DNA from: a virus | Length of the DNA stretch: 64,000 nucleotides | Strand: one strand, 5' to 3' | Virus record (IMG/VR): IMGVR_UViG_3300028422_000919 | Coordinates: 124,001-188,000 of that record | Shown here: positions 34,386 through 49,447 of the stretch, in pieces | Numbering within the stretch: position 1 is the first letter of the stretch | Layout of the letters: every line of letters starts with the position of its first letter | Position numbers and translations under genes: made by a program | Notes under the pieces: model-generated | The model's database searches: none | Told to the model about the DNA's origin: nothing | Seen by the model: the letters and a program-made list of their open reading frames with translations, nothing else

Positions 34386-34402
34386 TACTTGACGGAACGC
34401 AG

Positions 34403-34477
34403 TGCGCCCGGGGGGACTCGAACCCCCGCATCACCAAGTTTTAGAGACTCGGGCTCTAACCTCTGAGCTACGGGCGC
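34403..34477 (-). tRNA. tRNA with anticodon CUA (amber-reading, suppressor type)
   Basis: A complete cloverleaf: acceptor GCGCCCG/CGGGCGC, D arm GCTC/GAGC, T arm GGGGG-TTCGAGT-CCCCC, discriminator A, no encoded CCA. The anticodon stem CGAGT/ACTTG (one G-U pair, extended by C26-G44) encloses a seven-base loop CTCTAAA, which puts C-T-A at positions 34-36 after T33, so it reads UAG. The variable region is seven bases, longer than usual. It has its own promoter (34516-34542) and is isolated from other tRNAs. The charged amino acid cannot be read from the sequence. About a quarter of genes in the window end in TAG. Confidence 0.82.
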
Positions 34478-44721: not shown

Positions 44722-45627
44722 TTATGCGCCGAACAACTCTCCGATGAGGTCTTCTTCGCCCACTCCCGTCCACTTGGACGGGAACTTGGAGATCAGGGCT
44801 TCCCCCAGGTTCTTGAGGTAGTCGTAGCCGTAATCCCCATTCTCGGCACATCGGGAGAGGGTGTCGGGGATGTCATTCTCGATCTCCGAGCAGAAGAACA
44901 CGGCGGGGGCGGCAATAGCCGCAGAAGTGTCCACGTCCCCTGTGAGAGACACGATGTGCTTGAGAATAGCCGAGGCACTGTCGTAGCGTTGGATCGCCCC
45001 AATGGCCGCACGAACGTGCTGAAAGCCTTTCTCCTGAATGGGAGTAACCCAGCCATCTGCCCAACCCCATCCTGGAATCAGCTCTTCGATGTACGCTCCC
45101 GCATCCGCCTTGGGGCCGATGTGGTGGTATGTGTAGTGGGTGAGCAAAGCCGAGGCGGCAGCGGCCTCCAGCCCCGCCCTGGTGGCGTGCGTGAGACACC
45201 CCTGGAGGTAAGCGGCGTCAATGACTCCCTGCTCTTCCTTGAGCAATCCCAGGACCGGAGCCCGCATAGCGGCCCCCGACTTGTCACTGTAGGGACGGAT
45301 GCCCTTCAGAAACTCGGCCGGAGTTTGGACTCTCGCCAGAAAGTCGTAGAACGCCCCGGCGTATCCCTTGCGGGGGTCCCGTCGGAATGTGCTCAAAAAA
45401 GACTGGGCGATGTCACCCAAGCTCCAGGTGGACGGGAGTGGCTGCCGAAGCATCAACTCGGCCAACGCTACCTGCATCTGGGTGTCGTCCGAATATGTCC
45501 CGGGCTTCGTCTTCCACTTGGGGTGGCTCTGGAAGGTCCGAAGGTTGTTCCTCTTGGCGACGAATTTGGGGTCGGCATACTCGAAGCCGAAACCGTATCC
45601 GTCAAAAATCGCCGTATAGTGGAGCAC
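44722..45627 (-). CDS. ADP-ribosylglycohydrolase (DraG/ARH family)
   Basis: The family removes ADP-ribose from arginine, serine or other targets with two Mg ions. The ligand motifs are intact: YSDDTQMQVALAEL (about residues 45-58) and GDVDTSAAIAAPAVF near the end, with KSGAAMRAPVLGLL between and IFDGYGFGFEYADP at the start. At 301 residues it is a full domain. The GTG start at 45627 lies after AAAGGAG, and a promoter motif with a 16-base spacer is 33 bases upstream. It can reverse the PARP-like protein encoded at 25854-27683 or a host/defence transferase. It lies beside a kinase-vWA pair. Confidence 0.92.
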   Translation of the reverse strand: MLHYTAIFDGYGFGFEYADPKFVAKRNNLRTFQSHPKWKTKPGTYSDDTQMQVALAELMLRQPLPSTWSLGDIAQSFLSTFRRDPRKGYAGAFYDFLARVQTPAEFLKGIRPYSDKSGAAMRAPVLGLLKEEQGVIDAAYLQGCLTHATRAGLEAAAASALLTHYTYHHIGPKADAGAYIEELIPGWGWADGWVTPIQEKGFQHVRAAIGAIQRYDSASAILKHIVSLTGDVDTSAAIAAPAVFFCSEIENDIPDTLSRCAENGDYGYDYLKNLGEALISKFPSKWTGVGEEDLIGELFGA

Positions 45628-45659: not shown

Positions 45660-45686
45660 CTACCCGGGAATCCTACCCCCGTTACC
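45660..45686 (-). promoter_or_regulatory. Phage promoter motif, GGTAAC-N16-GGTAG
   Basis: GGTAAC at 45681-45686 and GGTAG at 45660-45664 on the minus strand, upstream of the ADP-ribosylglycohydrolase gene. Confidence 0.6.
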
Positions 45687-46851
45687 GGCTGAGGTCTCTA
45701 CGGCGGGGATCCGGCGGAGGGGCGCTCGGCCCACCCGGCACCATCGAGAGGGATGCGTGAACCGTCCCCAGGTTCTCGTCAGTGTACCGGGTGCCGGCCT
45801 GACGGGCGGAGAGAGCCTGGGTGAACGTGTCGTACTGACTGGTCACCTTGGCGACCGCCCCCAACATCACATCTACTACCCGACGCTGGTCGTGCAGCGG
45901 GAGGACATGATCCGATCCCAGAACCCGATTCCAGTACCCGTCGATATCGTAAGAACAGGATTTGACATAATAGTTGTGGTCTGCAGTGTGGGCCAGAACG
46001 GTGAACACTTCCCCCTTGCGCCGGAGGCAGGAGAACGTGTCCTTAGCCGTGTCCAGCTCCTCGTCTTTGCTGATCCCGACCCCCTGCAAACAGTAGCGGC
46101 TCGCCATGCTCTCGGCACCGGCCTCGTCGGTGATAAAGAACGTGAAGACGTGTTTGGCCGACCCAGTGTCCACGGCGTGCAGGAGCCAGTGGGCGACGAT
46201 CTCCGGGCTCTCTTCACCGTCCCCCCCACCCGAGGCCTCGGTGTTCAGGGCCTCCAAATGGTCGTCGAGAAGGGGTCCGCTGGCGAAGTCGATAACCTCG
46301 ATCACGTCACCGTACTTCACATCGCCGTATGTGATGAACAGGATCTGAAGGTCATCCCCCAGGAACTTCTGGGCCTCCCCGAACATCAACGGGAGGCGAC
46401 GGAAGATCTCGGGAACCCAGGACCGGATAGACCCAGTCACATCCACGACGACCTGGATGACGGCCTTAGCCGTGCTCTTAAGCGTCTTGCCGTGGGGCCT
46501 CCGGTTGAAGGAGTGCGGCGGCACCGGGACGTGGTTATGCTGCCAAACCACAGAAGCGGCAGGCTTAGGGGCGGGCTTCGGCGGCGCCTGAACGGCAGGG
46601 CTAGGGTTCCACGCCCTGGACGCCTGGTCCTTGACAGCCTTATCCTTGGCAGCCTTGTCTTTGCACCCCCAGCACAGATCACCGCTGTAGTTCACCTCCT
46701 TGCCACAGGAGCAGCGGTAAGTAGGGGCTGGGGTGCTATAACCTCTCCGGGCTCGGCTGTAATCAGTTCTGCTGTAGATATCCTCGCTGGAGTCACTCCG
46801 ATCACGATAGTCACGTCGGTCACTGCCGCCCCATCCAAAGGATCCACTCAT
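45682..46851 (-). CDS. Zinc-ribbon and von Willebrand A-domain protein
   Basis: The N-terminal region has CSCGKEVNYSGDLCWGC, a four-Cys zinc ribbon. A Pro-rich linker leads to a vWA domain (about residues 135-330) with the MIDAS signature VVDVTGSIRSW and an FITDEAGAE segment. vWA proteins coupled to Ser/Thr kinases occur in TerY-type and other regulatory systems. Here the gene overlaps the kinase gene by four bases (ATGA). Its partners are probably the kinase and a target bound by the metal site. Confidence 0.85.
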   Translation of the reverse strand: MSGSFGWGGSDRRDYRDRSDSSEDIYSRTDYSRARRGYSTPAPTYRCSCGKEVNYSGDLCWGCKDKAAKDKAVKDQASRAWNPSPAVQAPPKPAPKPAASVVWQHNHVPVPPHSFNRRPHGKTLKSTAKAVIQVVVDVTGSIRSWVPEIFRRLPLMFGEAQKFLGDDLQILFITYGDVKYGDVIEVIDFASGPLLDDHLEALNTEASGGGDGEESPEIVAHWLLHAVDTGSAKHVFTFFITDEAGAESMASRYCLQGVGISKDEELDTAKDTFSCLRRKGEVFTVLAHTADHNYYVKSCSYDIDGYWNRVLGSDHVLPLHDQRRVVDVMLGAVAKVTSQYDTFTQALSARQAGTRYTDENLGTVHASLSMVPGGPSAPPPDPRRRDLSR

Positions 46852-47642
46852 CGGTCCCTCCACTGCTCCTCGCAGCTCTCTCGCCCCCACACATCCATAC
46901 GGATGTGGTACAGCTCTCGCCGTACATCATCCGCCGAGGGGGGTCTCTTAGCCGGGTCTCGTGCAATCATCTGCTCCAACAGATCAGCCAGGGGCTCGAC
47001 CATGTCGGAAGGCACGGTTCCCTTGTGAATGTCTCCCCCGGCCAGGGCAATACCTACCTTGCCGACGGAGTAGATGTCCGACTCAGGAAGAGGTGGGAAC
47101 CCCTGCTGGAACTCAGGAGCCATGTAGCCAGGGGTTCCCCCTTTGGCCTTCGTCTTCTCATTGGGTTCTAGCGTTGCCATACCCAGGTCTACCAGGGTGA
47201 CCTGGTGATCCTCGATGTCGAGGATGGCGTTGGCCGGCTTGATGTCGCAGTGGACGATTCCGTGCCGGCGGTGCAGATAGTCCAGAGCACCCAAGACCCG
47301 ATCCAACACCCAGCAGATGTGCTCGTCCGCCACAGGACCCCGGGTTTCCAGGTGCTTGTCTAGGGGGGTCCCCGGAATGTAGCTCAGGACCATGATCTGG
47401 CCGATGTCTCCACCCACCTCGAAGTAGTCCAACAGGCTGGGGAACTGGAAGTGGCGGAGCTTCGCCAACAGCTCCGCCTCCTGGCGGAACATCCTGGTGA
47501 ACGGATCCTTGTGGGTCTTCTCCTGTTTGATGACCACAGGAAGACCCCTGCCGAGGATACAATGCCGCCCTAGATACACGTCTCCGAAAGCACCCCCTCC
47601 GAGCTTTTTACGAATCTCCCAGCTTCCGATGACGTGTCCCAT
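46848..47642 (-). CDS. Hanks-type serine/threonine protein kinase
   Basis: A whole kinase domain in 264 residues: the Gly loop KKLGGGAFGDVYLG, lysine in VVIKQEKTH, catalytic loop IVHCDIKPANAI, the DFG-equivalent VDLGMATLE (Asp kept, Phe to Leu), and the APE region YMAPEFQQGFPP. No membrane segment or sensor is attached. It should phosphorylate the vWA partner or host proteins. The ATG at 47642 has GGGGAG upstream. It is coupled to the vWA gene, and the gene at 47740 and CoaD-CoaE precede it. Confidence 0.93.
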   Translation of the reverse strand: MGHVIGSWEIRKKLGGGAFGDVYLGRHCILGRGLPVVIKQEKTHKDPFTRMFRQEAELLAKLRHFQFPSLLDYFEVGGDIGQIMVLSYIPGTPLDKHLETRGPVADEHICWVLDRVLGALDYLHRRHGIVHCDIKPANAILDIEDHQVTLVDLGMATLEPNEKTKAKGGTPGYMAPEFQQGFPPLPESDIYSVGKVGIALAGGDIHKGTVPSDMVEPLADLLEQMIARDPAKRPPSADDVRRELYHIRMDVWGRESCEEQWRDR

Positions 47643-47739: not shown

Positions 47740-48210
47740 TCATGGAAAGGGGGACTTGTGGGATGTCCGGAAGTGGCGAGACCACAGCTCCCGGACAACT
47801 TCTGGGGGAGCATCCGTGGCGAGGCCCTGAGGCGAACAGCCCCTCCCACCCCCGTACCCGTACACATGGTACTTGCCCCAACGACCGAGGAACACACTTG
47901 CGTCCCACCAGAAATCCCAGAGGGGAGTCCCCTCAGAGTTCAGCTCCCCCGTGTCATAGTAGCAGAGTTCCACTCCACTCTTCCCCAACTCCCGAAACGG
48001 CTCAGGGGTGTCACCCCAGGAATCGGGATCGATATACACAGCCCCCTCATCCTGCATGAGCTGCCAATCTCCGGGCCAGCAGTCGTTGCCGGAGGCGGAC
48101 TTGGCGACTGCAGGGGCCATCCTGGTGAGCTGCCCCAGCAACTCACCCACCCGGGCTTCGGCCCTCTGACGGGTGGTGCGGGGTTCAGTTCCGAAAGTGA
48201 ACGTCTTCAT
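47740..48210 (-). CDS. Hypothetical protein, 156 aa
   Basis: Not recognised. It is Trp/Gly-rich in its second half (LWDFWWDASVFLGRWGKYHV) and soluble. Its ATG overlaps the TGA of CoaD-CoaE. It lies between the CoA gene and the kinase gene. Confidence 0.65.
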   Translation of the reverse strand: MKTFTFGTEPRTTRQRAEARVGELLGQLTRMAPAVAKSASGNDCWPGDWQLMQDEGAVYIDPDSWGDTPEPFRELGKSGVELCYYDTGELNSEGTPLWDFWWDASVFLGRWGKYHVYGYGGGRGCSPQGLATDAPPEVVRELWSRHFRTSHKSPFP

Positions 48211-49421
48211 ACGTCGTCGCCGGTCGCTTTGCCGTAGTAGGCGGGCAAACTGGGCATAGCCTCGTAGAGGCATGACCGTAGGTAGGGGTACCCGAGATCG
48301 TCCCAAATGCGGAAATACGGGATAACATTCCCGAACTTCTCCCTTTCGTTGAGGATCTGGATACGTCTGATCTTCTCATCCTCTGGTAGGTGTTGCTCGT
48401 CGAAGCGAGCCTGGGTGTTGGGGTCCACACCTCTTTTTGCCAAGAGTTTGCTTTGGTCTGAGTTTCGCACTACGATCACGTTGCCGTTGACCAAAGAGGC
48501 CATGTCATTCTCGACCAGGAGAGCCCACTCCAGGATGATGACCCCCGCCTTGTCCGCCAACCACTCCCGCATTTTCCGGAGGACGTGAGGCTTGGTCCTC
48601 GTGTGGATCTGCTTGAGCATGTCCGGGGTGATCTCCCCGCTAGAGATCTTGGCCTTGAGCACAGCCGTGTTGACATTGTCTCCAAGGGGCATCAACACAT
48701 CCTTGCCCACGAGGTCAGCGATATCGTCCCGGACCTTCTGAGCGCCTGGCGTGTCCTCCTCGTATAGGTCACGGATGCACTTATCGAGGTTCAGGTGGTG
48801 GGCGGGGATGCCGTCGAGCCTGAGCCTCTTCTCCAGCTCCTTCGCCACCCAGGTCTTGCCTGTCGCCACCCGACCGCAGATACCAACCATGAATTGGCGA
48901 TGCAGTTTGACCTCCAAGCGATGCTTCACTCGGAGTGGCACTAGATGACCGATATCGACGTGCCGCTGGGCCATAGCCTTGACCAAACTGGAGCTGACGT
49001 GAGCCCAGTCAGGATCCGGGTGGACGAACACCACCATGTCCTTGATGCCGGGCATGATCCGGTCGTGGTGGCCCATCTGAGACTCCTCGTAAGCACGGTC
49101 ACGAGCGTCCCTCACCCCCCGAAAAATCACGTCGATCCCCTCCCGGAGGACGACGTCCACCAGAAGGTCGTTGGACCCGATGACCCGCCATCTCCCCCGA
49201 CAATCACCCGGAAGGAAAGTCGAGAGAGCATGGGTGACATGAAGCATCCTCTCGTTCATCTCTAGGAGGTACTTGCCCGCCTTATCGTCGTTGTTTCCGA
49301 CCCAGACCACCAGCTCGTCGATGACGGGTGCCCCCGGATCGTACTTCCCGAGGCACTTCCGAATGATGTGCAGGTGCCCCCGGGTCACGGGGTCTCCCGA
49401 CAAAGCGAACAATCCACGCAC
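48207..49421 (-). CDS. Fused phosphopantetheine adenylyltransferase and dephospho-CoA kinase
   Basis: Residues about 1-195 are a PPAT (CoaD): nucleotide-binding SGDPVTRGHLHIIRKCLG, IDVIFRGVRDARDRAYEESQ and VSSSLVKAMAQRHVDIGHLV. Residues about 200-404 are a CoaE-type kinase: Walker A GICGRVATGKTWVAKELE, then VIILEWALLVENDM and LLAKRGVDPNTQ. The pair catalyses the last two steps of CoA synthesis; a fused form is known in animals (CoA synthase) but is not the usual bacterial form. The start is the GTG at 49421, placed by AAAGGAGG six bases upstream; the ATG at 49442 lies six bases from the promoter and is not used. It opens the kinase-vWA operon. Confidence 0.88.
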   Translation of the reverse strand: MRGLFALSGDPVTRGHLHIIRKCLGKYDPGAPVIDELVVWVGNNDDKAGKYLLEMNERMLHVTHALSTFLPGDCRGRWRVIGSNDLLVDVVLREGIDVIFRGVRDARDRAYEESQMGHHDRIMPGIKDMVVFVHPDPDWAHVSSSLVKAMAQRHVDIGHLVPLRVKHRLEVKLHRQFMVGICGRVATGKTWVAKELEKRLRLDGIPAHHLNLDKCIRDLYEEDTPGAQKVRDDIADLVGKDVLMPLGDNVNTAVLKAKISSGEITPDMLKQIHTRTKPHVLRKMREWLADKAGVIILEWALLVENDMASLVNGNVIVVRNSDQSKLLAKRGVDPNTQARFDEQHLPEDEKIRRIQILNEREKFGNVIPYFRIWDDLGYPYLRSCLYEAMPSLPAYYGKATGDDV

Positions 49422-49447
49422 GGAGAACCTCCTTTCGTCCATGACCC

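Follow-up and report, generated by a model that had tools for sequence, protein, structure and literature searches.

A fused CoaD-CoaE gene in a 402-kb phage contig, with relatives in other viral contigs and in one Clostridia family

Introduction

Coenzyme A (CoA) synthesis is an essential pathway whose last two enzymes are known to be fused in eukaryotes, with a different type of PPAT, and in archaea, with an unrelated kinase. A gene at positions 48207-49421 of the DNA analysed here joins a CoaD (PPAT) domain to a CoaE (DPCK) domain among phage genes, which raises the questions of whether a virus carries a working CoA synthase of bacterial type and how the joined form arose. The stretch analysed, hereafter the window, comprises 64,000 bases (124001-188000) of a 402,383-base IMG/VR viral contig.

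Results and Discussion

One gene on the minus strand of a phage contig

The predicted fusion of CoaD and CoaE in a phage is real: a single uninterrupted frame of 404 residues runs along the minus strand, and the plus strand of the same interval is full of stops. The GTG start at 49421 is preceded by AAAGGAGG. The gene and its parts are as follows:

48207..49421, minus strand: fused CoaD-CoaE gene, 404 aa, GTG start at 49421, TGA stop
49428..49433, minus strand: Shine-Dalgarno-like AGGAGG, six bases 5' of the GTG start
48903..49421, minus strand: CoaD (PPAT) domain, residues 1-173, from TIGR01510 (E 2.3e-24), the structure model and the residue table
48237..48896, minus strand: CoaE (DPCK) domain, about residues 176-395, from Pfam CoaE and the structure model
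48852..48875, minus strand: P-loop GRVATGKT, residues 183-190, from the sequence and an alignment with 29 bacterial CoaE

At codon positions 1, 2 and 3 the CoaD half has a GC content of 0.68/0.36/0.76 and the CoaE half one of 0.60/0.36/0.77, a pattern that matches the other genes of the window; since it is the same throughout, the two halves form one coding frame. This continuity, together with eleven homologous fusions, rules out an assembly chimera or an accident of frame. The gene is present as a single copy in the contig. Around it lie genes for virion and tail-like proteins, an NAD-dependent DNA ligase and a thymidine kinase, with a deoxynucleoside kinase and a MazG-type pyrophosphatase also nearby, a setting that clearly marks the contig as phage and rules out host contamination.

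The CoaD half

The CoaD half matches NCBIfam TIGR01510 with 86.2 bits (E 2.3e-24), under the curated equivalog cut-off of 103.3, and passes the cut-off of Pfam CTP_transf_like. The archaeal/eukaryal-type PPAT model NF001985 (PRK00777) gave no match to the fused protein at E 0.1. An AlphaFold2 model of the whole protein, based on 13 aligned sequences (mean pLDDT 81, pTM 0.81), has the nucleotidyltransferase fold of PPAT in this half: its CoaD domain superimposes on M. abscessus PPAT 5o08 with a Z of 19.2 and an rmsd of 1.4 over 156 residues, and Foldseek matches it to 6b7a (E 9.8e-11).

The original prediction took the active-site motifs to be intact, which is borne out only in part. Kept in the CoaD half are S8 and H16 of the nucleotidyltransferase motif, K47, R101 and R104 (RGxR 101-104), S143-145 (SSS) and K148, the counterparts of reference T/S10, H18, K42, R88, R91 and SSS(L)VK, as well as D108 and E112. 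The E. coli CoaD positions G9, F11, N106 and E134 are changed, in the numbering of an E. coli CoaD sequence that agrees with the aligned E. coli PPAT chain. The GSF before DP reads LSG, and in place of the pantetheine-site Asn106 and Glu134 there are His/Asp near 119-120 and Ala149. The resulting S-G-D-P variant of the motif (Gly for E. coli F11, and no Gly at G9) is common to the window protein and three Clostridia fusions and is absent from 28 stand-alone phage CoaD and 79 bacterial CoaD. Substrate-binding residues of PPAT, whose loss had been named as grounds for rejecting the assignment, are thus lost at two pantetheine-side positions, with the ATP-handling and catalytic residues kept. However, the Clostridia fusions, which are the only CoaD candidates of their genomes, are also changed at the Asn106 and Glu134 positions.

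The same two changes, in a superfamily that has several substrates, are what would favour an activity of both domains on some other substrate pair, for instance NMN or a nucleotide analogue. Such a change of substrate appears highly improbable, given that NadD-type models reach only 17 bits on this half against 86 for TIGR01510, that a separate NadD-like gene lies in the same phage (contig 18250-18681), and that the Clostridia fusions changed at these positions are the sole CoaD and CoaE found in their genomes. NMN itself, suggested in the original prediction, is an unlikely substrate because the phage encodes its own NadD-like enzyme.

The CoaE half

The CoaE half scores 33.7 bits with Pfam CoaE, above the cut-off of 27, and 36.6 bits with TIGR00152, below the cut-off of 65.6. 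Residues 162-395 of the model align with the DPCK of mouse CoA synthase, 2f6r (Z 17.8, rmsd 2.9), and the CoaE domain aligns with the bacterial CoaE structures 8dv0 (Z 17.1) and 2grj (Z 16.7). Here the motifs stand as predicted at the P-loop and the catalytic Asp: G183, G188, K189, T190, D213 (the Asp at the acceptor site) and E304 (the Glu of LLVE) are kept. K189 and D213 correspond to K14 and D32 of M. tuberculosis and do not vary across the 12 fusions or the 29 bacterial CoaE.

They do not stand at the lid. The lid Arg (Arg140) is an Arg in 29/29 bacterial CoaE, and the window protein best aligns Lys325 with it, in a lid register uncertain by one residue; the invariant Gln that follows is best aligned with His344, where the register could likewise be off by one. 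Replacement of this residue in M. tuberculosis CoaE (R140K) abolishes most of the activity and leaves poor ATP binding (PMC3019153). The change of the lid Arg is the weakest point in arguing that the CoaE half is fully active. The Arg is also missing from three other phage fusions, where Val or Asn takes its place, so a different lid contact may serve in this subfamily; the basic residues Lys329 and Arg330 are close to Lys325.

A rival reading is that only the CoaD half still works: the CoaE half would have become a kinase that is regulatory or very slow, and the phage would make dephospho-CoA and leave the last step to the host. The lid change and the effect of R140K in M. tuberculosis, the Gln-to-His difference at His344, the great length of the CoaE branch and a score of this half below the equivalog cut-off all agree with such a loss. 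It is nevertheless an unlikely outcome, in view of the retained P-loop Lys, catalytic Asp and Glu304, the open frame with its normal coding signal, the neighbouring basic residues, and the absence of the same Arg from the three other fusions, which suggests that the subfamily tolerates it.

Fusion relatives in viruses

Profile scans revealed at least eight further viral contigs with a fused CoaD-CoaE gene. Members of the group are too divergent for single-sequence searches, which is why searches of viral sequences started from the window, L014 and L045 proteins matched only themselves and profiles were required. The contigs are:

L014: 169 kb
L045: 68 kb
L178: 174 kb
L179: 54 kb
L181: 304 kb
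L182: 51 kb
L183: 195 kb
L184: 109 kb

Both domains were confirmed by Pfam in five of them (L014, L178, L182, L183 and L184). The L045 fusion passes both NCBIfam cut-offs (CoaD 140.8 vs 103.3; CoaE 69.7 vs 65.6), and the TIGR01510 cut-off is passed by L014, L045 and the three Clostridia fusions.

Three tblastn queries against the 50,697 phage records of INPHARED detected no fused gene, and literature searches yielded no phage CoaD-CoaE fusion. Several unannotated INPHARED matches (MT837518, MT838720) were deposited as phage and look like pieces of bacterial chromosome, judging by their rsmD-coaD and polA-coaE gene order. Large phages commonly carry a stand-alone CoaD. One further viral contig has CoaE and CoaD as separate genes (L046, IMGVR_UViG_3300021142_000007), together with ORFs that by eye appear SmpB-like and sigma-factor-like.

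Counterparts in Clostridia

A scan of bacterial genomes placed a fused gene, one among the matches listed, in Clostridiales bacterium GWE2_32_10. Its neighbours, none of them phage genes, are a cyclase-like gene and one that by eye resembles mcsA. All three genomes examined of this family (3/3) carry the fusion, and these make up the Clostridia set (G001, G018 and G037). In each of them nothing but the fused gene passes the cut-offs for CoaD and CoaE, and it is provisionally regarded as their sole CoaD and CoaE; most others of the 196 genomes in the order have two separate matches, one for each enzyme. No further fusion appeared among 398 Bacillota species, a sample that included G001 as the only genome matched, or among 398 Pseudomonadota species, a sample without a positive control. 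The bacterial spread of the fusion seen in these scans is a lower bound. With the fused enzyme seeming to be the sole one, the three Clostridia genomes offer a natural test case.

Origin of the fusion

Phylogenies of both halves, proposed as a check on the fusion, were computed. A tree that combines all twelve fusions with 29 bacterial and ten stand-alone phage CoaE unites the fusion CoaE halves in one clade (97/88), as does a tree with six fusions (100/99). The best CoaD tree likewise groups the CoaD halves together, though weakly supported (58/86). The window protein has both domains in one frame and its CoaE half lies inside the 12-member clade; it is the most divergent of the fusions, with end branches of 1.64 (CoaD) and 3.3 (CoaE). 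Since the CoaE halves make one clade and the CoaD halves are grouped in the best tree, these relationships point to a single, ancient fusion of bacterial type that would have arisen in parallel to animal CoA synthase; the CoaD tree taken by itself allows a single event and does not prove it. For transfer between phages and Clostridia, the tree topology would be compatible with either direction.

The order of domains, PPAT followed by DPCK in one chain, is indeed that of the eukaryotic CoA synthase (COASY), as had been pointed out, and the alignment of the C-terminal domain with the mouse DPCK adds to the likeness. A special kinship to the animal enzyme does not follow. The CoaD half is of bacterial type, matching TIGR01510 and not the archaeal/eukaryal-type model, bacterial DPCK structures match the C-terminal domain about as well as the mouse one does (Z 16.7-17.1), and the protein groups with phage and Clostridia fusions in trees that contain no eukaryotic rows. 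Animal origin is therefore unsupported, and the bacterial type of the CoaD half speaks against animal descent. The resemblance to COASY lies in domain order and purpose and suggests that the two fusions arose in parallel.

With the separate bacterial CoaD and CoaE the window protein shares both folds and most of the catalytic residues; it differs from them in the joining of the domains and in the changed lid Arg and pantetheine-side residues. The CoaE halves of the fusions form a distinct subclade with respect to bacterial CoaE, with CNNN-like and further positions specific to the fusions. Jumbo phages of Caulobacter and Brevundimonas, Lak phages and the Microcystis phage MaAM05 encode a stand-alone CoaD, a phage PPAT that is known and annotated; it lacks a CoaE domain and falls into separate clades of the CoaD tree. 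In archaea, PPAT is fused to the dephospho-CoA kinase arCOG04076 (PMC6650551), which is unrelated to CoaE, whereas the kinase of the window protein has the P-loop CoaE fold. Both coaD and coaE are abundant viral genes in snow viromes, as separate gene calls and with no fusion mentioned in the portion of that report consulted (PMC11097641). Because the archaeal fusion and the snow-virome genes were already known, what is new is confined to a fused form built from bacterial-type domains, its spread among viruses, and a counterpart in bacteria that seems to be their sole copy.

Function of the fused protein

We consider it likely that the fused protein is a bifunctional CoA synthase of bacterial type. 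The fusion itself, the two folds, the retention of most catalytic residues and a clade shared with phage and Clostridia fusions back this assignment; scores below both NCBIfam equivalog cut-offs, the long branches, and the changes at the lid Arg and at N106/E134 count against it. The gene is probably a working maker of CoA rather than a curiosity, because no fewer than eight other viral contigs have a similar gene and it is apparently the only version in one small bacterial family.

We infer that in the window copy the CoaD domain would adenylylate 4'-phosphopantetheine, supplied by the host pathway or by turnover of host carrier proteins, to dephospho-CoA, which the CoaE domain would phosphorylate to CoA. 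A single gene could in this way enlarge or safeguard the CoA pool while a long infection lasts, to the benefit of the phage and alongside its NAD-related genes. The occurrence of a bacterial-type fusion in at least nine diverse viral contigs suggests that viruses gain from completing CoA themselves.

Neighbouring genes and a recurrent partner

As predicted, the fused gene heads a minus-strand run that includes a Ser/Thr kinase and a vWA-like protein:

47740..48210, minus strand: ORF of 156 aa with no family and no Pfam match; its ATG overlaps the fused-gene stop (ATGA)
46848..47642, minus strand: Ser/Thr (Hanks-type) protein kinase, Pkinase 117 bits; likely ATG start at 47642, inferred
45682..46851, minus strand: vWA-like protein with a MIDAS-like DVTGS by eye, PHROG 2971 (E 1.1e-9); its ATG overlaps the kinase stop
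44722..45627, minus strand: ADP-ribosylglycohydrolase, PF03747, 80.8 bits

On the downstream side of the fusion, the kinase and vWA-like protein (45682-47642) and the ADP-ribosylglycohydrolase (44722-45627) thus follow one another directly. The further suggestion of a takeover operon fares less well: the next gene does overlap by ATGA, but the neighbours differ in other phages, and with the neighbourhood not conserved the idea is only a guess.

A different partner recurs among the relatives. In four viral contigs the gene immediately next to the fusion encodes an HD-type phosphohydrolase (PHROG 19425), and a homologous domain is fused to the C-terminus of the Clostridia fusion in G037 and to CoaD in L026; searches by sequence found no solved structural relative. 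The corresponding features are:

L178:2974-3549, L179:2974-3549, L184:2925-3518 and L043:7118-7741: HD phosphohydrolase, PHROG 19425
C-terminus of L134:1501-3303, and L026:5968-7104: homologous HD domains, beside or fused to CoaD or CoaD-CoaE

RNA may start with dephospho-CoA as a cap. With the HD phosphohydrolase as a partner in relatives, the role of the fusion could be to limit free dephospho-CoA or to tune the CoA/dephospho-CoA ratio, for example in respect of such RNA. The recurrence of the enzyme beside or within CoaD-CoaE genes suits this role, but the window phage lacks an HD homologue, and for the window protein we give the proposal very little credence; the assignment as a CoA synthase is retained. 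It is tempting to hypothesize, as a rather doubtful extension, that phages and one Clostridia family share a self-contained CoA module of fusion and HD phosphohydrolase that makes and trims CoA metabolites, through which phages would set the CoA/dephospho-CoA level of the infected cell, and that the bacterial coaD and coaE were possibly replaced by a phage-derived enzyme. In any case, the recurring HD partner may point to a step in CoA metabolism that is new.

Other genes stand next to the fusion or elsewhere in these genomes. Directly upstream of the fused gene there is an HD_4 (SpoT/MESH1-like) ORF in the T4-like phage L043 (5479-5997) and a NADAR-domain gene in L182 (2991-3521). In the window phage itself, outside the window and near 18 kb of the contig, NadD-like, KptA/Tpt1-type and SpoT/MESH1-like HD_4 genes are clustered. 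Their positions in L006, which belongs to the window phage, are:

L006:1417-1986: NadD-like enzyme
L006:2176-2712: KptA/Tpt1-type RNA 2'-phosphotransferase
L006:642-1274: SpoT/MESH1-like HD_4 protein

The window also holds a tRNA gene (34402-34477, minus strand) with anticodon CTA, labelled tRNA-Pyl by ARAGORN and a possible amber suppressor; yet TAG is the stop codon of 5 of the 24 window ORFs sampled.
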